From the IMG/VR virus record IMGVR_UViG_3300021962_005878, positions 1 through 27,342 of that record: 27,342 nt of DNA. One strand, given 5' to 3'. Both the position numbers and the translations under genes were made by a program. Positions 7,937 through 27,293 of this stretch are shown one piece after another (position 1 is the first letter of the stretch; each line of letters begins with the position of its first letter). The notes beneath the pieces were generated by a model. The model saw only the letters and a list, made by a program, of their open reading frames with translations. It did no database searches and was not told the DNA's origin. The DNA is from a virus.

Positions 7937-8274
7937 TCTACATAGTAGACATCGATCAGACTATATGCATGACTCCGTTTGTGAATGGAAAGCACCGTTA
8001 CGATCTTTCCGATCCATTCCCACAGCGTATTGACAAGATAAATAAACTATACGATCAGGGGCACACCATCATCTATTGGACTGCCCGTGGTTCAGGGTCG
8101 GGAATCGACTGGACAGAACTCACCACAAAACAACTCAATGATTGGGGCTGCAAGTTCCATGAAGTACGTCTCGGAAAACCTTCCTATGATGTATGGATTG
8201 ATGATAAAGCTCTCAATGATAGTGAATTCTTTTTTGACGTAGATCAAGCATATCTCGGAGAACATGATGAATGA
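7933..8274 (+). CDS. Small HAD-superfamily phosphatase, probable sugar-phosphate phosphatase
   Basis: A capless HAD phosphatase of 113 aa. Motif I is DIDQT (residues 6-10, nucleophile D6 and general acid D8), motif II is the Thr of YWTARG, the Lys is in GKPSYD, and motif IV is the WIDDKA acid pair. Such short HADs act on phosphosugars in capsule and LPS synthesis (KDO-8-P, heptose bisphosphate) or on nucleotides. It overlaps the glycosyltransferase gene and leads a cassette with HddA-like and GmhA-like genes. A role like GmhB, removing the 7-phosphate of heptose-1,7-bisphosphate, is therefore plausible, though that is inferred from context only. Confidence 0.82.
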   Translation: MIYIVDIDQTICMTPFVNGKHRYDLSDPFPQRIDKINKLYDQGHTIIYWTARGSGSGIDWTELTTKQLNDWGCKFHEVRLGKPSYDVWIDDKALNDSEFFFDVDQAYLGEHDE

Positions 8275-9253
8275 AGATTTAATTGAACTAAATGAACTGA
8301 ACAAGGAATCGAACGGTGGAACAGAACTTACCACTCGAGGTCTCTTCAACCGACTTACTCGTGATGAACTCGATGGTGTCCAAATTGTCACTGCTCGCGT
8401 CCGCGACCTTGATCCTAACCGAATTAAGATCTATCATCTACACGACCTTGCCGGCGATCCGGAGGCTTCACACCTTCAAGATCCAGCTTCTCGAGCTCGC
8501 TTCCAAAAGTTGGTCTTCAGCTCTAACTGGCAGTATCAACAGTATCGTGACTACCTTGGAGTTCCATATAGCAATCATTCAACAGTTATCGAAACAGGCA
8601 TCGAGCCTATTCCACTCGTTGACAAGCCAAAGGACAAGATACGTCTCATTTATACGTCCACACCTCATCGTGGATTGGAGATTCTGGTTCCTGTCTTTTG
8701 CGCTCTCGCCGAGAAATATCCAAACATCGAGCTAGACGTCTTCTCTTCCTTCGGAATCTATGGCCCAGGTTGGGAAGGCCGTGACGAGGCATACAAGCCT
8801 CTCTTCGATAAGATGAACGAACATCCACAAATCAACTATCATGGTTGGGCAGATCAGGAGACAGTACGTGCCGCATACCAAAAAGCCCACATCTTTGCAT
8901 ATCCTTGTATCTGGCCGGAAACTTCGTGCAGGTCACTTATTGAAGCTATGTCGGCTGGTTGTTTGGCGGTTCATCCTAACTTCTCTGCTTTGGCTGACAC
9001 GTCGGGTGGGTTGACTGTTCAATATGACGGCGACCATGAGAATCCAAATCTGCATGCTAACATCTTCGCACACACTCTGATGTATGCCATCGAGAACGTG
9101 CAGAACAACGACATTACTAACATGATGTCATTTGTCAAAGCCTATGCAGATACTCGTTTCGGTTGGGATTCTGTAATTCCCAAGTGGAAGGGACTGATTG
9201 CATCATTGAAGGAACAACACCGTGATATTGGCCAAAGCACCACTCAGAGTTAG
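8264..9253 (+). CDS. GT-B fold glycosyltransferase (GT4-like)
   Basis: A 329-aa retaining glycosyltransferase of the GT4 type. The C-terminal nucleotide-sugar domain shows IYTSTPHRGLEIL (residues 129-141), the strand/loop NYHGW, and the E-x7-E motif E219...E227 in WPETSCRSLIEAMSAG. The N-terminus has the glycine word NGGTEL. The protein is somewhat shorter than the usual 360-400 aa because the acceptor domain is reduced. No membrane segment is visible. It is the only transferase in the sugar cassette, so it probably uses the product of the neighbouring kinase and isomerase. The acceptor (host LPS, capsid or DNA) cannot be told. Two ATGs start the frame; 8264 has GGAG upstream. Confidence 0.88.
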   Translation: MMNEDLIELNELNKESNGGTELTTRGLFNRLTRDELDGVQIVTARVRDLDPNRIKIYHLHDLAGDPEASHLQDPASRARFQKLVFSSNWQYQQYRDYLGVPYSNHSTVIETGIEPIPLVDKPKDKIRLIYTSTPHRGLEILVPVFCALAEKYPNIELDVFSSFGIYGPGWEGRDEAYKPLFDKMNEHPQINYHGWADQETVRAAYQKAHIFAYPCIWPETSCRSLIEAMSAGCLAVHPNFSALADTSGGLTVQYDGDHENPNLHANIFAHTLMYAIENVQNNDITNMMSFVKAYADTRFGWDSVIPKWKGLIASLKEQHRDIGQSTTQS

Positions 9254-10172
9254 TTTTTTCGGCGGGGGTAGTGATATCCCCGCCCACTTTGCACAATGGG
9301 GTGGAGCAACCATCTCAACTGCCATCGACAAGTATGTCTATGTAGCAGTGATGCACACACCACACGACCACATTAAAGTTTCCTATTCGAAACAAGAGTG
9401 TGTTACAGACATAGAAGATCTTCAAAACGAGATCGTCAAAAACGCTCTTAAGTTCTTCGGTATCAAATCCAACATCGAGATCACGTCATTCGCGGACATC
9501 CCTACGATCGGTAACGGTCTTGGTGGATCGTCTGCCTTTACTTGTGCTCTCATCAAGGCTTTATCTACATATCTTGGTTATGAATACGTAAATCCTTATC
9601 TTGTTGCTAAGACTGCGTGTCATATCGAGATAGACCTGTGTGGTTGGAAGATCGGCATGCAGGATCAGTTTGCATCTGCATTCGGTGGCATGAACTACAT
9701 TAAATATTCTAACCGACTTGGGACTAGCGGTGTTGATGTGAAGCGTCTCGATACAATGGCAATCGAGAACTACATGATCTTGATTCCCACAAACGTAGAG
9801 CATCATGCAGCCAAGATCCTTGATAGCATTAACTTTGAAGCAAAGACATTTGTAATTAATGAACTTGCTCGTATGGCAGATATGCAAGGCACTCAGCTAG
9901 TAAATCCATTCGACTATGGTAGATTGCTTGATTCGGCATGGATTCTGAAGAAGCAGATGAGCGAAGAGATCTCCAGCAGTGATATAGATATTATGTACGA
10001 TCGTTGCAAATCTGCTGATGCTGTCGGTGCTAAGTTGCTCGGAGCTGGAGGCGGCGGATACATGCTAGCAATCACAGATTCAAAGAGCGCAATCCGCCAA
10101 GAATTCTCAGACAGAACATGCCTCGATGTAGGTATCGCACATGAAGGAGCAAGAGTTGTCTATCGAGACTGA
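9222..10172 (+). CDS. hddA: GHMP kinase, HddA-like (heptose 7-phosphate kinase)
   Basis: A 316-aa GHMP kinase. The N-terminus reads KAPLRVSFFGGGSDIPAHF followed by a GGATISTAIDKYVYV stretch, the form typical of D-glycero-alpha-D-manno-heptose 7-phosphate kinase. The ATP loop is GNGLGGSSAF (about 97-106). The IGMQDQFASAFGGMNYI word is characteristic of the HddA group. The C-terminal glycine motif is GAKLLGAGGGGYML. It would phosphorylate the anomeric carbon of heptose-7-phosphate. Start: GTG at 9222 with AAGGA upstream, overlapping the transferase gene by 32 nt. A related galactose/fucose-type sugar kinase is the main alternative; the neighbouring GmhA-like gene favours heptose. Confidence 0.87.
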   Translation: MILAKAPLRVSFFGGGSDIPAHFAQWGGATISTAIDKYVYVAVMHTPHDHIKVSYSKQECVTDIEDLQNEIVKNALKFFGIKSNIEITSFADIPTIGNGLGGSSAFTCALIKALSTYLGYEYVNPYLVAKTACHIEIDLCGWKIGMQDQFASAFGGMNYIKYSNRLGTSGVDVKRLDTMAIENYMILIPTNVEHHAAKILDSINFEAKTFVINELARMADMQGTQLVNPFDYGRLLDSAWILKKQMSEEISSSDIDIMYDRCKSADAVGAKLLGAGGGGYMLAITDSKSAIRQEFSDRTCLDVGIAHEGARVVYRD

Positions 10173-10737
10173 CATTATATTTGATCATATGGGCCTAATT
10201 AATATTGGGTTTGCAAGTATCGATCATGAAGAATTTAAAAAAGCAGCCGAACTGATTTGGCTGACAAGCATTTCAAATCATCGTAACAACATCTATACTA
10301 TCGGTAACGGTGCATCTGCTTCCATCGCTCAGCATTGGGCATGCGACTATACCAAAGGTTGTAAGAAAGGTGGACTGCGACCAAGAGTTATTTCTTTGGC
10401 TGCAAATATTCCACTGATGACAGCTGTGGCGAACGATATCTCCTATGACGATGTTTACTCGTTCCAGCTCGATGCACTCGGACAAGAAGGTGACGTACTC
10501 GTGGCCATCTCTTCGAGTGGTAATTCTCCAAATGTTGTCAAGGCAATTGAAACTGCTAAGGCATTGAAAGTAAAGACTATTGCTTTGACAGGATTTTCTC
10601 CAGATAATAAGTGCGCTCAGCTCGCAGATATCTCTCTACATGTCGATATCCAAGAATATGAGGCAGCAGAAGACGTCCACCAAGCTATTATGCATATGAT
10701 TGCTAAATATATCAGAAACAGAGGTAAGGTTACATAA
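10141..10737 (+). CDS. gmhA: SIS-domain phosphosugar isomerase, GmhA-like
   Basis: A 198-aa single-SIS protein of the GmhA/DiaA group. GmhA turns sedoheptulose-7-phosphate into heptose-7-phosphate. Phosphate-binding words are GNGASASIAQH (55-65) and ISSSGNSPNVVKAIETAK (123-140). Aligned to E. coli GmhA, metal/catalytic positions H61, E65, Q172 and H180 correspond to H65, D69, E177 and H185, so one Glu has become Asp and the Gln has become Glu. The gene overlaps the kinase gene by 32 nt, and its stop shares a base with the next start. Pairing with HddA supports the heptose pathway; another ketose-phosphate substrate is possible. Confidence 0.83.
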   Translation: MKEQELSIETDIIFDHMGLINIGFASIDHEEFKKAAELIWLTSISNHRNNIYTIGNGASASIAQHWACDYTKGCKKGGLRPRVISLAANIPLMTAVANDISYDDVYSFQLDALGQEGDVLVAISSSGNSPNVVKAIETAKALKVKTIALTGFSPDNKCAQLADISLHVDIQEYEAAEDVHQAIMHMIAKYIRNRGKVT

Positions 10738-11492
10738 TGTCACAACAACCAGTATCAATTCATCAGATCGCAGCTCAGTTCGGAACAGATAGTGGAAACT
10801 ATGAAGTACTCACTGACGCAGCCATTCGATCGAAGGGTGTAGAAGGCGCAGCAGTCGAGATCGGTGTTCGTCTCGGTGGTGGTCTACAACGTATCATCGA
10901 CGGTCTCGTAGAAAGTGGTCAAACTCCTGAGAAGCCAGTCTTTGGTATCGATCCGTATGGCAACATCGAGTACTACCGTGACGAGATCTTTAAGGAAGGC
11001 CGTTGCGACTATACCAATGAGATGCGCGACATTTGCATGATTAACATGTATCTGTACTGCCGTCAGAAGAACGTCAACTTCTATATGTTCAACCTTGAAG
11101 ACACCGAGTTCTTCAATCGTTATGCAGACGGTGTTCCTGTCTATGCAGACTATAAGCAGCTCGTCAATAAGTACAGCGTAGTCCACTTCGATGGTCCTCA
11201 TACACTCGAAGCTCTCGATGCCGAGATTGCATTCTTCCTCGAGCGGTCAGATCCTGGCGCTGTCTTCGTCTTTGACGACGTAGAGATGTACGAACACGAT
11301 GCTGTACACAATCAGTTGCTTGAATATGGTATGGAAATTGCCATGGAAACTGCTCGCAAGTGGTCCTACGTCAAGAAGGAACATGTCGATAAGAAGTGGG
11401 AACCAGTCGTTGGAACTCCTGGCTGGGAGCCAAACGCAGAGCAGTACACACCAAAGGGCGGTCCAAGTTTTAATTATAAAATCGACCTGTGA
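10737..11492 (+). CDS. Class I SAM-dependent methyltransferase-like protein
   Basis: A 251-aa protein with Rossmann methyltransferase features. The glycine motif I is in AAVEIGVRLGGGLQRI, the acidic motif II is in VFGIDPYGNIEYY, and the VVHFDGPHT strand with VFVFDDVEMY matches motifs IV and V of the TylF/Methyltransf_24 type. Such enzymes methylate sugars or other small molecules. It ends the coupled sugar cassette, so O-methylation of a transferred sugar is a natural guess. A new promoter follows in the 71-nt gap after it. The C-terminus (about 215-251) is Pro/Gly-rich and not assigned. Confidence 0.72.
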   Translation: MSQQPVSIHQIAAQFGTDSGNYEVLTDAAIRSKGVEGAAVEIGVRLGGGLQRIIDGLVESGQTPEKPVFGIDPYGNIEYYRDEIFKEGRCDYTNEMRDICMINMYLYCRQKNVNFYMFNLEDTEFFNRYADGVPVYADYKQLVNKYSVVHFDGPHTLEALDAEIAFFLERSDPGAVFVFDDVEMYEHDAVHNQLLEYGMEIAMETARKWSYVKKEHVDKKWEPVVGTPGWEPNAEQYTPKGGPSFNYKIDL

Positions 11493-11501
11493 AAATAAGC
11501 A

Positions 11502-11539
11502 TGTACAAATTATCGAAACTGTAGTAGGTTGAATAATAC
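11502..11539 (+). promoter_or_regulatory. Phage promoter element, ATGTACA type (copy 1)
   Basis: The gap between the methyltransferase gene and the next gene holds AAGCATGTACA, then TTATCGAAAC. TGTACA is at 11502-11507. Seventeen nucleotides on lies TAGGTT (11525-11530), and 26 on lies TAATAC (11534-11539). The same block occurs before several other genes in this window. Either TGTACA is the -35 box with a TAnnnT -10, or it is an upstream activator box. Confidence 0.6.
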
Positions 11540-11563
11540 AAACAAGGAACTACAGAGGTAAAC

Positions 11564-12652
11564 ATGGTCATTAAGGTTAAAGCTAAACCCAAACAGATCT
11601 CTCGCTCGGCTATCAAGTCTATCGATGACAAAGCCTATGGCTCCGAGCCTATCGTAATCGATGGTTATAGCAACGCTTTAAATTGGTATAACTACATGGC
11701 ATCTGATGATCAGTCGCGTGACTGGTTCTTCACGTATGCCAAGAAGAATTATACCAAGGATCAACTCACACTCTTGCGCAAGCTTCCAAAGTGGAAGATT
11801 TCCAAGACTCTTGGTAACGTTGCACGTATTCTCCTGAATGGCAATGAGCTGCCGCAAAAGAATCTCGACTACTTCAATGATAGTGTAAAGAATCTCCTTG
11901 CGGCAGCTACACAAGTTGTCGAAGAAGTCGAAGACGCTCCAAAGCCTGTCGTCGATATTCAAGCTCGCATTCGTGAGAAGGCCAACTACATCATCACGAG
12001 TCTCGAAGAAGAACTCGATAATGTAATCGATGGCAAAGCGTTCTCGATGTATACCTTCTGTCAAGCCAACGAGCTGAATGCACAGATCCTCGGCATCGTA
12101 GCTGACTACTACCGTCCACAGTACACCGAGATTATGTCTGACGACGAGCAAGTCAAAGAATCCTTTGGCAAGCGTCAAAAGTTCTGGATTAATTTTTGGC
12201 AGAGCTTCTTCGATGACATCGATCGTTATGTAAATAACAAGAAGGCCGTCAAGGTTCGTAAGCCACGCGAGAAGAAAGCAAAGTCTGCAGTCGATCTGGT
12301 CAAGAACCTTAAATATCAGAAGGAAGAGCCTTCACTCAAGATTGTCTCTGTCCATCCGGCAGAGATCGTAGGATGTACACAGCTATGGACGTACAACACA
12401 AAGTACAAGAAGCTAGCTCGATACGATTCCAGCGGTCCAGCTGGAATTCAAGTCAAGGGCACTACCTTGGTTGGCTATGATGTCGAAACCTCTACAAGCA
12501 AGAGCTTGCGTAAACCAGATGTTTCTATTCAAGCATTGCTCGGCGCAGGCAAAGTCAGCCTACGCAAGTTCATGGACGAGATCAAGACTGTAGAGTCCAA
12601 GCCTAACGGCCGAATCAATCAAGACACTATCCTCTTAAGGGTTATTAAATGA
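11564..12652 (+). CDS. Unknown 362-aa conserved phage protein
   Basis: First gene after the promoter at 11502, with its ATG at 11564 behind ACAGAGGT. The N-terminal half is helical, with a Trp/Tyr-rich segment (NALNWYNYMASDDQSRDWFF at about 38-57). A basic region lies in the middle (KKAVKVRKPREKKAKS at about 232-247). The C-terminal third looks beta-rich (IVSVHPAEIVGCTQLWTYNT) and could bind nucleic acid. It contains no enzyme motif. It is coupled to the next gene (ATGA overlap) and precedes RNase H, so a replication-associated role is possible. I do not recognise a characterised family. Confidence 0.8.
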   Translation: MVIKVKAKPKQISRSAIKSIDDKAYGSEPIVIDGYSNALNWYNYMASDDQSRDWFFTYAKKNYTKDQLTLLRKLPKWKISKTLGNVARILLNGNELPQKNLDYFNDSVKNLLAAATQVVEEVEDAPKPVVDIQARIREKANYIITSLEEELDNVIDGKAFSMYTFCQANELNAQILGIVADYYRPQYTEIMSDDEQVKESFGKRQKFWINFWQSFFDDIDRYVNNKKAVKVRKPREKKAKSAVDLVKNLKYQKEEPSLKIVSVHPAEIVGCTQLWTYNTKYKKLARYDSSGPAGIQVKGTTLVGYDVETSTSKSLRKPDVSIQALLGAGKVSLRKFMDEIKTVESKPNGRINQDTILLRVIK

Positions 12653-12999
12653 CAGATAACGTAATCTTGTTTCCTGGTTTTAAGCGGGACGATGCTCCGC
12701 CTCAGAACTTGGACGAAATTCTTGACAAAGTTACACAAACTCGGAAAGAGCATGTAGCTGGTGTCATGAATGATATGATTCCTGATTTGATTCATATCTT
12801 CGGTGCCTACGGTGTAGACATCAATGACGATAAATATGTAAAAGATGTTGCTATGGTAATGGAAGCCACAAAGTCTTTACTGCACAAGCAGTATAACCTT
12901 GAGCATCCGTTCCATAAAATGGTCGACGGCATATTTGAGTTTAGTTACAATGAAGATAGTACAATCGCGTACACATACACTTTACCAGATGAAGAGTGA
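12649..12999 (+). CDS. Unknown 116-aa phage protein
   Basis: Starts in an ATGA overlap with the gene before it and ends 9 nt before RNase H. The N-terminus is MTDNVILFPGFKRDDAPP, a short motif (ILFPGFKR) seen at the start of small phage adaptor proteins. The middle is helical and the C-terminus is a short beta/acidic tail (FEFSYNEDSTIAYTYTLPDEE spread over the last 22 residues). The function is unknown. Confidence 0.75.
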   Translation: MTDNVILFPGFKRDDAPPQNLDEILDKVTQTRKEHVAGVMNDMIPDLIHIFGAYGVDINDDKYVKDVAMVMEATKSLLHKQYNLEHPFHKMVDGIFEFSYNEDSTIAYTYTLPDEE

Positions 13000-13008
13000 G
13001 AAACTGAA

Positions 13009-13863
13009 ATGATTATTATGGACCTTTCACAGGTCATGATCTCCAACCTGATGGTTCAGCTTGGAAACCACACCAACGCCGAGATCGAAGAAGATCTTCT
13101 ACGGCATATGATTCTCAATTCGATCCGTTCGTATAACCAAAAGTTTAAGAACGAGTTCGGCGAGATGATCATCGCATGCGATGCTGGCAACAACTGGCGT
13201 CGTCAAGTCTTTCCTTACTATAAAGCTAATCGCCGTAAGAATCGCGAGAAGTCAGAGATCAATTGGACGACAGTGTTCGAGACTCTGAACAAGGTTCGTG
13301 ACGAGCTAAAGGATTATTTCCCATATCGAGTTATTCGTGTCGACGGCGCAGAGGCTGATGATGTCATCGGTTCTCTCGCTCAAGAATACGGTAATACGAA
13401 CGAACCGATTCTGATTCTCTCAGGAGATAAGGACTTCGTTCAGTTGCAGTGTTATATGAACGTAAAGCAGTTTGATCCTGTGCAGAAGAAGTGGCGCAAG
13501 ACAAATGATGTCGATAAGTTCATCAAGGAACACATCATTCGCGGCGATACAGGCGACGGTGTTCCTAACTTCTTGTCAGCAGATGACACGTTCGTTGTCG
13601 GTGCAAGACAGAAGCCTATCAGCCAGAAGAAGCTAGATCAGTGGCTCGAAGCAGCAGATCCAAAGGAATTCTGTGACGAGAAGATGCTGCGTGGCTACCT
13701 TCGCAACCAACAGTTGGTCGATCTCAACTTCATTCCTTCTGATATCAAGAAGGAAGTGCTTGTGCAGTTCGAAGAGCAGGCAGGAAAAGGCCGTGATAAG
13801 CTCTTCAACTACTTCATCGATCGCCGACTCAAACTCCTTGTAGAAAGCATTAATGAGTTTTAA
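13009..13863 (+). CDS. rnh: T4-type RNase H, 5'-3' exonuclease / flap nuclease
   Basis: A 284-aa FEN-family nuclease that removes RNA primers and 5' flaps during lagging-strand synthesis. The metal-binding acids lie in the expected order: D5 (IIMDLSQVM), D60 in the IIACDAGNNWRRQVFPYYKA word, the E/D cluster in VDGAEADDVIGSLA, the paired Asp of ILSGDKDFVQL, and the Asp of GDTGDGVPN. The arch-region Arg/Lys words (NWRRQ and YKANRRKNR) are also present. T4 Rnh is about 305 aa, so the size fits. Two ATGs (13009 and 13018) are possible starts; the first is used. Its function fits the gp32/gp59 genes further along. Confidence 0.93.
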   Translation: MIIMDLSQVMISNLMVQLGNHTNAEIEEDLLRHMILNSIRSYNQKFKNEFGEMIIACDAGNNWRRQVFPYYKANRRKNREKSEINWTTVFETLNKVRDELKDYFPYRVIRVDGAEADDVIGSLAQEYGNTNEPILILSGDKDFVQLQCYMNVKQFDPVQKKWRKTNDVDKFIKEHIIRGDTGDGVPNFLSADDTFVVGARQKPISQKKLDQWLEAADPKEFCDEKMLRGYLRNQQLVDLNFIPSDIKKEVLVQFEEQAGKGRDKLFNYFIDRRLKLLVESINEF

Positions 13864-20585: not shown

Positions 20586-21164
20586 ATGAAACTTTTCGAA
20601 AATAGAAAAGATTTCCCTTACCTTCGCTGGGCTGAAGGATTCTGCATTGGATTGATGCTTGCTGCAACCGCAGCAGTTGCAGTGCCAATCAAAGAACCTG
20701 AAGTCAAGATCGTAAAGGTCCCTGTAACTAAAGTAATCGAAAAAGAAAAGATCGTAAACAAGCCAGTTTATCTGAGCGCGAACGATAGAAAACAAATCCA
20801 ATGCATGGCTGAGAATACATATTTCGAAGCAGGACATGAGCCCGTCAAAGGACGGATCGCGGTGAACAATGTTGTTTTGAACCGTGTTGAAGATAAAAGA
20901 TTCCCGAAAACACCATGTGCGGTCATCAATCAAAAGGCCAGAGGCGTATGCCAATTTTCATGGAAGTGTGAGGGTGGAAAAAGAATCCGAGATAATGTGG
21001 CTTTCGCAAGAGCGAAAGAAATTGCTGAACACGTATATCTAGGTAATTATGGTGATGTGACACGTGGTGCACAGTTCTACCACGCAGACTATGTCAGCCC
21101 ACGTTGGGGCAGAGTCTTTGATCGTACGACTAAGATTGGTGCACACATTTTTTATAAAGGATGA
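20586..21164 (+). CDS. SleB-type cell-wall hydrolase (probable endolysin), membrane-anchored
   Basis: The C-terminal ~120 residues are a Hydrolase_2/SleB domain: QCMAENTYFEAGHEPVKGRI (73-92) with the likely catalytic Glu, then NNVVLNRVEDKRFP, GVCQFSWKC, and an end with GAQFYHADYVSPRWG. SleB enzymes cut the glycan strand of peptidoglycan. The N-terminus has a basic start and a single Ala/Gly-rich hydrophobic helix (about 16-35) followed by a Val/Lys-rich spacer. It should be exported as a membrane-tethered or signal-arrest-release lysin. Start ATG 20586 follows AAGAGGA. It is the best candidate for the lysis enzyme in this window. Confidence 0.9.
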   Translation: MKLFENRKDFPYLRWAEGFCIGLMLAATAAVAVPIKEPEVKIVKVPVTKVIEKEKIVNKPVYLSANDRKQIQCMAENTYFEAGHEPVKGRIAVNNVVLNRVEDKRFPKTPCAVINQKARGVCQFSWKCEGGKRIRDNVAFARAKEIAEHVYLGNYGDVTRGAQFYHADYVSPRWGRVFDRTTKIGAHIFYKG

Positions 21165-22957: not shown

Positions 22958-22988
22958 GAAAGGGGGCCGAAAGGTCCCCTTTCTTTTT
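22958..22988 (+). terminator. Rho-independent terminator after gp32
   Basis: GAAAGGGGGCC and GGTCCCCTTTC form an 11-bp stem with one G.U pair around a GAAA tetraloop, followed by five T. It ends the plus-strand unit where it meets the convergent minus-strand gene, whose stop (22987-22989) lies in the T tract. In the other direction no T tract follows. Confidence 0.93.
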
Positions 22989-25029
22989 ATCCGTGTGCCG
23001 TTTGTTCGTAGTTGACTTTTGCAATTAATCCCATACGAATCAAATACCAGTCAATATTCGAGTTATCAGATTCTGTTTGCGCGCCTTGCATTCCTGAAGA
23101 ACTCGAACTCGAGCTAGTGCTCAAACTAATTGGCGATGGTATTGAAGCCGCTGCATTTTCAGGAGTTTTCAAATCAACCATCACAGCCGTTTTTTCTCTG
23201 GCGGCTTTTGCAATATTTCCTGACATTGTGTCATTAAAACCTAGAAGTTGAGATCCAGACACATATTCTTGTTTTCCGAAGGAAGCACGCGCAATTGTAC
23301 CAAGGGCTTCCATTGCACCTTTGGTTAAATTAACACCAGTGGCTATGACTTGATCTAATATACCAGGTTCGGAACCACCGGTATGGCGACTAGTTCCTGG
23401 AATTTCAATATGCCATGGTTCCCACGACATTGGAAATTCCAAACCGAATCTAGCTGCATTCGCATGTGCCCATGTTTGAGCTGGACCAGGTTTGGCTATG
23501 TCCAGATCTGCCGCGGCGCCATAGTTATGATTAGATTGGCCAGGAGGTGCTACCCATTTTCTTGCCGCCTTTTCGCTGCCGTATTCTTTAACAGCCTGTG
23601 CAAATAATTCTTTTTGTCGTGCAACCGAACGAAACCCAGAAGTAATTCGAATTGGTACGCCGGCTTGTTCAGCCGCCACAAGAAATGGTCCTAACTTACC
23701 AGCAAAATCTGGTTTAAAGCCTTTTACATGTGACGGATCTTTGTAACTATACTTTTGAAGATCGATGGGTGCACCTGTTTGTGGAGGAGTGCCAGTAACA
23801 GGTGTAGCATTAGGAGATGCAGGTGTACTAGGAGCAGGAGCGCTCGGAGGAGTAACCCTAGGAGAAGCCGATGGAGCAGGAGGCGGAGCAGTATTCGATC
23901 GACTCGGACTTGGAACTGAGGATCTTGATCCAGAATTGCTTGTCGTTCCAGAAGAAGTGTTGGTGCGAGTTGCAACGCTTCGCCCTGTAGTTGAGGCCGC
24001 AGCTTTATTCGAACCAGAATTCGGCATTGCCGCTGGAGTACTAGAAGAACGTGAAGATGTACTGCTCGGAGTAGTTTCAGTCGGTTCACTTGGAGCGGCA
24101 GGTAATGAAGGCGCTGCCACATTAGGAGAAGACGGAGTATTACCTTGAGTAATATTTGGCTGTACGGATGCATCTACTTCAGTACTCTGACTTGAAGCAG
24201 AAGAAGAGCCTCCAGTAAAAAAATCTAATCCGTCAGAAATAGTGCTGGCAACATTTCCTACAAAATTAAATACACTTTTAATGCCGCTCGCGAGTGACTT
24301 AAACGCTTCTTGTACCGGTTCGAACTGCGCAGCTATTAATCCTCCTACAAGGAGTGCTACTCCCATTCCAGTAGCATCAGATTTTTCTGCATCTGCTTGA
24401 GAATTTTGTTCGATAGGAGATGCATCTTCTGATTTCGCTTCGATAGCGGCTTCTTTAGTTGCTACTAAATTTTTATTGGCTATTTTCTTTTGATTATCTA
24501 AGCGCTGCTTAAGATATCCGTCAACAGCAGCCAGCTTCTCTATCATTTGAACGATAGGAGAATTGATTTTAATATTTGAAACAGGAAGTTGTCCACCGCC
24601 TGTAGGAGTTTTGACTTTTTGCTTTGCGGCCTGTCCAGCTACACCCATTCCTGAAAAAACTTGGCCAGCCGCGGCTTTCTTTGCCCAATTTTCGTAAAGC
24701 TTTTCTTCTTCGGTCGTACCTTCCACGATGCCTTGATAGGCAGCTTCGATCAGTTTACTAAAGGCAGGATTAGCAGCGTCTTTAGTTTTCTTGTCGATCC
24801 ATACGTTGCTGTTAAGATCCCATACGTATTCTGTTTTACCAAGTTTTACAATCGGCCGAGAAGTATCAATACGAACACGCTTCTTCTTTCCTTCAGGAGA
24901 ATTTTCAACCTGAAGTCTATTCAGGAGTGAAAGCAATCCTTCAGGAGCTTTTGCTTTTGATTTCTGATCTACCCAACCTTCAGCAGTTTTAATGAAGGTT
25001 TGACCGCCTATTGTAACTGGTTCAGCCAT
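22987..25029 (-). CDS. Virion-type M15 peptidase with long Ser/Pro linker
   Basis: A 680-aa protein. N-terminal region (1-270): two short repeats around a Trp (TAEGWVDQK, NSNVWIDKK), a GxAGxAAKxKV...GGGxLP word (129-149) and one hydrophobic stretch (221-234). Residues 273-420 are a low-complexity Ser/Pro/Ala/Thr linker. Residues 425-545 form an M15 (VanY/endolysin-like) zinc peptidase: ITSGFRSVARQKELFAQA, then SNHNYGAAADLDI with H501 and D508, and EPWHIEI with H540. It should cleave peptide bridges in murein during entry. Residues 568-609 repeat a segment of the next gene. Start and stop overlap its neighbour (TAATG). Late tail or internal virion protein is the likely class. Confidence 0.88.
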   Translation of the reverse strand: MAEPVTIGGQTFIKTAEGWVDQKSKAKAPEGLLSLLNRLQVENSPEGKKKRVRIDTSRPIVKLGKTEYVWDLNSNVWIDKKTKDAANPAFSKLIEAAYQGIVEGTTEEEKLYENWAKKAAAGQVFSGMGVAGQAAKQKVKTPTGGGQLPVSNIKINSPIVQMIEKLAAVDGYLKQRLDNQKKIANKNLVATKEAAIEAKSEDASPIEQNSQADAEKSDATGMGVALLVGGLIAAQFEPVQEAFKSLASGIKSVFNFVGNVASTISDGLDFFTGGSSSASSQSTEVDASVQPNITQGNTPSSPNVAAPSLPAAPSEPTETTPSSTSSRSSSTPAAMPNSGSNKAAASTTGRSVATRTNTSSGTTSNSGSRSSVPSPSRSNTAPPPAPSASPRVTPPSAPAPSTPASPNATPVTGTPPQTGAPIDLQKYSYKDPSHVKGFKPDFAGKLGPFLVAAEQAGVPIRITSGFRSVARQKELFAQAVKEYGSEKAARKWVAPPGQSNHNYGAAADLDIAKPGPAQTWAHANAARFGLEFPMSWEPWHIEIPGTSRHTGGSEPGILDQVIATGVNLTKGAMEALGTIARASFGKQEYVSGSQLLGFNDTMSGNIAKAAREKTAVMVDLKTPENAAASIPSPISLSTSSSSSSSGMQGAQTESDNSNIDWYLIRMGLIAKVNYEQTAHG
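23203..23328 (-). repeat. Shared 42-residue C-terminal module, copy in the M15 peptidase
   Basis: Residues 568-609 (LTKGAMEALGTIARASFGKQ and on to FNDTMSGNIAKA) are about 80% identical to residues 630-671 of the adjacent transglycosylase protein. The module follows the enzymatic domain in both proteins. Confidence 0.85.
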
Positions 25030-27293
25030 TACGCAGCCATCTTCGGTTTATGATATTGCATGTATTTTTCTATTGAGCCTTTTCCTGGGAAATTAGGATC
25101 GAAGTGTTCGCGCTTATTATCATTCGAAGAATTAGCTTTATTGCCTAAAGCAGCGCCTGATGCTTCTTGCTGATTCTTAGCTTGAGCTGTATCTTTAGCT
25201 CCTAAGTCAACTGCAGTTTGTACTTGTGTCGACATGCCCTTTAATGTTTCAGTCACAGCAGATGCGCCTTGATTAGGAACTGCTTTGGCTACATTACCTT
25301 GCATAGTATCATTAAAATTATTTAACTGAGATCCGGGCGAATAAGCTTGTTTACCAAAAGAAGCTCGAGCGATCGTGCCGAGAGCTTCCATTGCACCTTT
25401 ACCTAAATTAGCAAGATTCGCAGCCACATTACTTCCAGGCGCAGCTGCACCTTGCGAATCATAAGTAGAAGGCGCATATTGTCCACCGGTATAATCAGCC
25501 ATCCATTTTGCTTGATATTGTGCAACTGTCAGTCCGTTATTCTGAGACAATTCCTCGGGTGTAAGATACTTCTTGGGACCAGCATACCATTCGGCTGGAA
25601 CTGCGGTTACATCTCCGCCATTTCTTCGTAATATATCTTGAACATATAGTGCAGCAACAGCGTCTTGAATAGGTGGTGGAGCAAGATATGCTCTAGGATA
25701 TTCAGTTCCTATTTTATATAATTTAGTTAAATTTCTCCAAGATTCGTCGAGGAATGCATATGCACCAGATGCAGTTTGGTCTGGCATGCCAATCGGATGT
25801 GGAATACCATAATTGCCACCGGACTCTCGCGTTCTGATAGTAGCAAGGATTCTTTCTACATCTGCTGGAATAGGTGGAAGATTTTGCAACTGTGCTGCAG
25901 AAGCTATCGGAGCTCCAGCAATATTACCTGATCCCGATATTGGAGCTGCATCAGGCTGTGGTTTTAAATTTGCAGTAGCTTGCGCATCTTTTAATTGTTC
26001 TTCTTCTTCTGTCCAATCCCAATATGCAGATATAATATCATATATTAGAAATGCGCTTGAGGCGACAGTAATAAGAGTAAGCAAAGCTCCAGGTATTACG
26101 CCAATTCCTGTTGCAGCAATTCCAATACCTGCTAAAGCTCTTCCAAGTAAAGGCATAACCTTTCTTGCAAGGAAAGTTTTACCAAAACGTTTTGATAAAA
26201 ATGCTACAAATCTTCTTCCTTTTGGACCTGATAACCATCCTCCGCCTGCTGAAGAAGCAGCTTTTGATGCTATTTTTCCAGTGACAGGATCTCTAAATCC
26301 TAGTCTTCCTCCTGATGCCGAAAGCCGCGGTGCAGCCTGAGTTTTTGCAATATTAGCTCGGGCATTTTTAATTTTTCCAAAGGTTTTTACACCTCGATAT
26401 GCAGCATAACCGGCCAAACCTCCGGCCATGGCATGGTCATATGATCCATCTTTTCGTGGAGCTTGAGTGCCATCAGGTTCTTTTCCAGTCCCGGTTATAT
26501 TTTCAAATAAGCTATTTCCGGTAAAGCGCTCGCTGAGATACTCGGCTACGAGCCCTGCAATTCCCAAGCGAACTCCGCCTAGAAGATATCCAATAACTGA
26601 GCCTGTACTTGCTACTCCATCGGCGAGTGGACCAAGGAAATCAAATTTTTCGTTAAAGGCTTTATAACTGTCTTTTAAACGATCGAGTTCTTTGGTATCT
26701 AAATTGCCTATGGCTAAAAGGCCGAGTCCTGCAATCCCACTCGCCGCTAAGATGGCTTTCGTGATTGTGCCAGCTCTGCTTTTTACTGTGCTGTCATCTG
26801 ACATACCGCTAAATTTGTCAGATAACTTAGTAAAGATACTTTCTTTTTGGCCGCCGCTTTCAATGGCACTTTCTCGTTCAGCTTGAGCTTGCTGAACGAA
26901 TGCATCTCTCTCAAACTTAATTTGCGCCTGAAGAGTCTTATCGATAGAAGAAAGATAATTGACTGCGACTACTAGAAGCTTTTCAGTAGGCATATTCGCA
27001 TTGACAGCAGGAGTAGCAGCTTTTTTCGGAGCAGGAAGTGTTCCTCCGCCAGTTACCTTGCCTTTCGCAGCAGTCCCAGCGATACCAAAATTATTTACTA
27101 TCGTTTTAGGTGCAGGAGTTAACGCTCCACCGACAGCAGAGCCGATACCTTGGGCGATACCTCCGACGGCAGAACCAATTCCAGTGACTGTCGCAGAAGC
27201 AAGACCGAAGAAACCTTCAATGCCCTCTCCTACGACTTCTACGCCGAGTCTTGGTAATATTCCCCCGAGTCCTGGTTTTCCAACCTTTCCCAT
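25029..27293 (-). CDS. Virion-type lytic transglycosylase with membrane segments
   Basis: A 754-aa protein. The N-terminus is Gly/Ala-rich (glycine-zipper-like, 25-58). Residues 67-146 contain a GxAGxAAKxKVTGGGxLP word and a helical region shared with the M15 gene. Hydrophobic segments lie at about 178-196, 228-252 and 386-424. A lysozyme-like domain at about 478-600 has catalytic E490 in TIRTRESGGNYG and ASGAYAFLDESWRNLTKLY, like Slt/transglycosylase domains. The shared 42-residue module is at 630-671. It should cut murein glycan at infection and perhaps help form a path through the membrane. It overlaps the M15 gene and an upstream gene by TAATG. Late structural protein; the exact position in the virion is unknown. 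Confidence 0.87.
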   Translation of the reverse strand: MGKVGKPGLGGILPRLGVEVVGEGIEGFFGLASATVTGIGSAVGGIAQGIGSAVGGALTPAPKTIVNNFGIAGTAAKGKVTGGGTLPAPKKAATPAVNANMPTEKLLVVAVNYLSSIDKTLQAQIKFERDAFVQQAQAERESAIESGGQKESIFTKLSDKFSGMSDDSTVKSRAGTITKAILAASGIAGLGLLAIGNLDTKELDRLKDSYKAFNEKFDFLGPLADGVASTGSVIGYLLGGVRLGIAGLVAEYLSERFTGNSLFENITGTGKEPDGTQAPRKDGSYDHAMAGGLAGYAAYRGVKTFGKIKNARANIAKTQAAPRLSASGGRLGFRDPVTGKIASKAASSAGGGWLSGPKGRRFVAFLSKRFGKTFLARKVMPLLGRALAGIGIAATGIGVIPGALLTLITVASSAFLIYDIISAYWDWTEEEEQLKDAQATANLKPQPDAAPISGSGNIAGAPIASAAQLQNLPPIPADVERILATIRTRESGGNYGIPHPIGMPDQTASGAYAFLDESWRNLTKLYKIGTEYPRAYLAPPPIQDAVAALYVQDILRRNGGDVTAVPAEWYAGPKKYLTPEELSQNNGLTVAQYQAKWMADYTGGQYAPSTYDSQGAAAPGSNVAANLANLGKGAMEALGTIARASFGKQAYSPGSQLNNFNDTMQGNVAKAVPNQGASAVTETLKGMSTQVQTAVDLGAKDTAQAKNQQEASGAALGNKANSSNDNKREHFDPNFPGKGSIEKYMQYHKPKMAA
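25281..25406 (-). repeat. Shared 42-residue C-terminal module, copy in the transglycosylase
   Basis: Residues 630-671 (LGKGAMEALGTIARASFGKQ and on to FNDTMQGNVAKA) pair with residues 568-609 of the M15 protein. Most differences are single conservative changes, and the flanking sequences are unrelated. Confidence 0.85.

Follow-up and report, generated by a model that had tools for sequence, protein, structure and literature searches.

The window analysed here, the whole 27,342-base stretch of an IMG/VR virus record, belongs to a T4-like freshwater phage, marked as such by homologs of nrdA, nrdB, gp59 and gp32. Two minus-strand genes lie at its right end in the order B then A. Gene B (25029–27293, minus strand), delimited by its open reading frame and by relatives with the same order, encodes 754 residues comprising a helical N-terminal scaffold, a lytic-transglycosylase-like cassette and a C-terminal module (C-module), while gene A (22987–25029, minus strand) encodes 680 residues comprising an N-terminal scaffold, a linker rich in P, S, T and A, a VanY/M15 cassette and a C-module. 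The two genes overlap by one base, so that the stop codon of B and the start codon of A form the junction TAATG, read directly at 25027–25031 on the minus strand. Scans of IMG/VR yielded many relatives of A and B, including several deep clades, and the two genes are adjacent wherever both are present on a contig; the TAATG overlap recurs in 25/25 distinct pairs of the closer set, and in the deepest clades the overlap is one or four bases. No cultured relative of the scaffold turned up in the phage collection searched, where A matched M15-type domains only and B gave no match.

The cassette of A (residues 430–545; 23395–23742, minus strand) matches Pfam VanY with E 1e-16 and 61.3 bits (cut-off 25) and the VanY fold with E 4e-7. 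It carries the M15/VanY metal-ligand motifs SxHxxGxAxD, read as SNHNYGAAADLD at 23500–23535, and EPWH, read at 23404–23421 (both minus strand); by motifs and profile score, the middle domain of A is a VanY/M15 peptidase. In B, residues 466–605 (25479–25898, minus strand; AF2 pLDDT mostly 50–85) include an RTRESGG motif (25815–25835, minus strand) and resemble the Slt70/MltD/RPF fold (Foldseek probability 0.97, E 0.09). B had no match in Pfam, and relatives gave weak matches to the Transglycosylas family and to a PHROG transglycosylase. The middle domain of B is therefore predicted to be a lytic transglycosylase, an assignment less certain than that of A, since it derives from a fold match at E 0.09 and from relatives.

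Around these differing middles, the ends of the two proteins are alike. The C-module of A (residues 568–609, LTKGAMEALGTIARASFGKQEYVSGSQLLGFNDTMSGNIAKA; 23203–23328, minus strand) and that of B (residues 630–671, LGKGAMEALGTIARASFGKQAYSPGSQLNNFNDTMQGNVAKA; 25281–25406, minus strand) are identical at 34 of 42 positions, and a weaker likeness links the N-module of A (residues 127–200; 24430–24651, minus strand) with that of B (residues 67–146; 26856–27095, minus strand). Compared by BLASTP, A and B match with E 1e-17 in the C-terminal part and E 1e-6 in the N-terminal part; profile–profile comparison with orthologs raises these to 99.4% probability (E 2.7e-20, 114 columns) and 98.2% (E 2.5e-13, 177 columns), respectively. 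The original prediction, made from the letters of the window, had described a C-terminal segment of about 42 residues at about 80% identity, a weaker N-terminal resemblance and different catalytic middles; the first is exact in its coordinates (81%), the second is borne out by both comparisons, and the third is clear for A and less certain for B. An origin of the similarity in low-complexity sequence is ruled out by the length of the profile matches, the P/S/T/A-rich composition being confined to the linker of A. Seven related contigs were searched for the C-module, which occurs exactly twice in five of them and escaped detection in the other two, both divergent; none of the seven showed a third carrier. 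In a tree of the N-modules, A and B form two reciprocal clean clades (100/100), as expected from an old duplication, and by these comparisons A and B are ancient paralogs.

The AF2 models of both proteins are poor except for the enzyme domains and the first 100 or so residues of A. This N-terminus of A contains a duplicated hairpin-like motif at 24943–25029 (FIKTAEGWVDQKSKAKAP) and 24760–24849 (YVWDLNSNVWIDKKTKDAANP), both minus strand, which AF2 predicts well and which is missing from A in four deep clades (L134, L138, L139 and L144).

Exchange of the enzyme cassettes

Alignments of orthologs show the scaffold and the C-terminal part to be constant and the cassette to be variable, in A and B alike. 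The slot in A holds eight peptidase types, namely VanY, divergent VanY-like, M15_4, M15_3-like, two with M15-like motifs, M23 and CHAP. Of these, VanY, M15_4, M15_3 and M23 have clear backing from Pfam and CHAP is borderline, the rest being assigned by motif or weak matches. The slot in B holds glycan cutters or unassigned types, namely the transglycosylase type, Phage_lysozyme2, two types of putative activity labelled NNPGN and NNPGG, and one type of no assigned family; profile searches of the PDB with the NNPGN and NNPGG cassettes returned chance-like matches only. Nothing useful came from NCBIfam. Among the IMG/VR relatives typed, no cassette type is common to both slots.

With cassette labels assigned by motif, the scaffold trees require at least 11 cassette changes in A and at least 10 in B. 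For instance, contigs L022 and L023 are nearly the same in A and in B except for the cassette of B, with the joints falling in linker sequence. Similarly, the cassettes of L017 and L028 are 97% identical on scaffolds that are 48% identical, and those of L025 and L031 are 91% identical on scaffolds that are 47% identical. Since similarity across clades is much higher in the cassettes than in the scaffolds, the cassettes have, on these identities, been exchanged horizontally. The original proposal of a duplicated scaffold whose enzyme has been exchanged thus gains strong support from the reciprocal N-module clades and from repeated cassette replacement in both slots. In L016, L022 and L023, the central part of B that precedes the cassette is also replaced (FYYWNQVHLAATEGRFGSGPAAANWLQTQG), which makes it a second site of exchange.

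Position in the tail cluster and the marine twins

On L017, the longest related contig (128,766 bases), the A/B pair is flanked by gp26 and gp32; B is preceded by genes for a member of the tail-tube family and for a gp26-like protein of the hub, and gp48-, gp53-, gp27-like and gp5-like genes lie nearby on the opposite strand. The same slot is occupied in Caulobacter phage Cr30 by the tape measure protein, and no other large open reading frame recognisable as a tape measure was seen in the stretches of L017 read for it. The gp5-like protein of L017 has 269 residues and matches the Gp5 OB-fold and the gp5 family; a lysozyme domain was not found in it, this being the one related contig where the protein was read, so the A/B pair could do that job. 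A and B themselves match none of the parts of T4 gp5 in Pfam (OB-fold, lysozyme domain, beta-helix) and do not qualify as gp5. Hydrophobic stretches above the cut-off number five in B and one in A, and helices are predicted in both proteins by AF2 at low pLDDT. Judged by gene order, A and B are probably tail tape-measure proteins. The original prediction had missed this position, from which the pair probably has a structural role as well as carrying enzymes. In the T4-like phages L150 (S-BM3; 9391–13404), L161 (Melnitz EXVC044M; 10252–12480) and L070 (phiM7; 10313–12016), the same slot holds a single long protein instead of a pair.

In several marine Kyanoviridae phages, gp26 is likewise followed by a pair of long neighbouring genes and then by a gp27-like gene. 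These twins (S-SCSM1 ORF213/214, S-CREM2 ORF208/209, and those of S-ShM2 and ACG-2014d) resemble A and B in gene order, in adjacency, often with a one-base overlap, in N-terminal paralogy and in bearing various murein enzymes. They differ from A and B in being longer, in that no C-module common to both cyanophage twins was found, and in that their homology to A and B is weakly supported, the best comparison (marine slot-1 N-terminus against B) reaching 72% probability and the others less. S-SCSM1 has a glucosaminidase upstream and VanY downstream, the same order as in the window; VanY stands in slot 1 in three marine phages, however, and S-N03 and S-H34 have two glycosidases, so that a universal rule placing the glycan cutter in slot 1 and the peptidase in slot 2 is ruled out.

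According to published proteomes, both twins are present in CsCl-purified virions of S-CREM2 and of S-SCSM1. The original prediction would have suffered had only one of the two proteins been found in virions, and in these two phages both syntenic proteins are there. For seven marine phages, chosen because their lengths were at hand and with tail lengths taken from six published papers, the length of protein 1 follows tail length with a Spearman coefficient of 0.93 (0.89 without S-CREM2), and that of protein 2 with a coefficient of 0.68 (p 0.09). S-CREM2 has the longest reported cyanomyovirus tail at 418 nm (PMC10665884), and its ORF208 and ORF209, at 1565 and 1456 residues, are by far the longest twins; the tail length per residue is not constant, at 0.27–0.29 nm in S-CREM2 against 0.13–0.19 nm in the others. 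A tape-measure role for slot 1 draws some support from these relatives.

The same data lend some weight to the alternative that B, in slot 1, is the tape measure alone and that A is an accessory enzyme carrier binding the same hub site. The good correlation for protein 1 beside the weak one for protein 2, the excess of hydrophobic stretches in B, and the shortness of A proteins in some deep clades (510–599 residues) all point that way. The length data, however, come from seven marine phages that lie outside the A/B clade altogether, and the scaffold and the C-module are common to A and B; this division of roles is judged less likely than not.

Partner matching of the C-modules and a model for the pair

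Among eight deep representatives, the best match of each C-module is that of its own partner (8/8; permutation p 5e-5), with an identity of 55% within a phage, 22% between an A and other B modules, 24% between A modules and 23% between B modules; neither the N-module nor the C-tail after the module has a significant pairing effect in the same eight. When the set is enlarged to 17, 10 A and 12 B modules have their own partner as the best match, since near relatives share modules. A single clade of all A C-modules is rejected (p-AU 0.0007, on a short alignment with long branches). By these measures, the two shared ends differ in history, the N-module keeping an old paralog signal and the C-module being matched partner by partner. 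The earlier suggestion that both ends may serve docking or packaging at one virion site therefore survives in part: the matching of the C-modules fits a shared docking role, which they may have, whereas nothing comparable is seen in the N-module, and the two ends call for separate treatment.

Joint constraint on the C-modules, imposed by a common partner or mutually, is the simplest reading of this matching. The competing account holds that A and B underwent gene conversion at the root of each clade and diverged afterwards, with no requirement to match. C-modules are adjacent homologous targets, identical residues in C-module pairs use the same codon slightly more often than codon usage predicts (177/416 against 163 expected), and long identical DNA runs, otherwise absent, are marginal in L017 (P 0.044) and L009 (P 0.054). 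A clear conversion tract, however, was seen in none of the 12 A/B pairs tested, synonymous codons lie near the usage expectation in every lineage while the residues stay matched, and the flanking C-tail and N-module have not been homogenised. Recent duplication or conversion is thus unsupported by the codon identities, and an old conversion appears unlikely to account for the matching.

Duplication, cassette exchange, the partner-matched C-module, the overlap and the synteny are established at the level of sequence, and they are best accommodated if A and B are twin tape measures that bear enzymes and attach through their C-modules to a single site on the tail hub, a reading to which a probability of about 0.6 may be given. 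A and B together would fill the tape-measure position, in the inner tail or the hub, of a T4-like phage, and in the phage of the window both proteins would be housed in the lumen of the tail or in its hub. The C-modules of the two may dock on the same or a repeated hub site, or pack together in one bundle, and the TAATG overlap may help to balance the amounts of A and B through translational coupling. On infection, the two enzymes would locally cut peptide cross-links and glycan strands; such two-bond opening of murein by the peptidase and the predicted transglycosylase of the window is plausible from their domain assignments. A more elaborate and rather improbable version envisages a mixed two-chain tape-measure bundle, e.g., three copies each of A and B on a hub of pseudo-sixfold symmetry. 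One slot would then serve a glycan cutter and the other a peptide cutter, the C-modules would be matched keys changing together, and the enzymes would be exchanged freely to suit the host wall. That A and B are endolysins packed inside the capsid or loosely carried, with no structural role in the tail, as the annotation of marine pairs as endolysins or enzymes might imply and as the authors on S-CREM2 and S-SCSM1 suggested for their pairs, which they deemed unlikely to be structural, is very improbable in view of the constant place of the pair among the hub genes, the named tape measure of Cr30 in that slot, the long scaffold besides the enzyme, and the correlation of marine protein-1 length with tail length.

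Enzyme-bearing tape measures are already known, as is domain shuffling in phage proteins. The phiIPLA35 tape measure carries a muramidase (as cited in PMC11329794) and those of enterococcal phages carry lytic transglycosylases (PMC10194240); like A and B, these long tail proteins occupy the tape-measure position and contain a cell-wall enzyme, but there is one per phage, whereas A and B are two paralogs with exchangeable, slot-preferring cassettes and a partner-matched C-module. T4 likewise combines a tail-borne murein enzyme with an inner tail length protein, gp5 and gp29, and gp5 is its only known virion enzyme (PMC3004832); unlike in A and B, the enzyme sits on the gp5 spike and none on gp29, whose gene order is 51-27-28-29-48-54. 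The C-terminal helices of the diffocin tape measure anchor it on the spike (PMC11329794), which makes docking by the C-module reasonable and offers a model for its possible role, although the diffocin tape measure is one homotrimeric protein and the peptidoglycan hydrolase is in the hub instead. Domain-shuffled phage proteins share with A and B the conserved ends and exchanged domains, the exchange in A and B affecting two linked paralogs; a survey of such shuffling was unable to confirm that tape measure proteins are recently mosaic (PMC10684548). In the open-licence literature searched, no description was found of tape-measure-like paralogs that come as a pair, have exchangeable enzymes and match each other in the C-module, which is not proof of absence.

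The pair hints that T4-like tails divide their labour in a way not recognised so far, in which tape-measure-like twins would bear complementary cell-wall enzymes, and it suggests an annotation for marine and freshwater phage proteins now listed as endolysin or hypothetical. Moreover, the partner-matched C-module may provide a handle on the attachment of the tape measure to the hub, and the exchangeable cassettes indicate how a tail enzyme can be replaced without breaking the tail.

Elsewhere in the window, an open reading frame at 20586–21164 (plus strand), which adjoins gp59 and gp32, encodes a SleB-like cell-wall hydrolase (Hydrolase_2, Pfam E 2e-23) that is a third murein enzyme and perhaps the endolysin. 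Two further frames on the plus strand, at 9222–10172 and 11564–12652, strongly match the PHROGs of unknown function phrog_34407 and phrog_11903, and a glycosyltransferase-like frame lies at 8264–9253.
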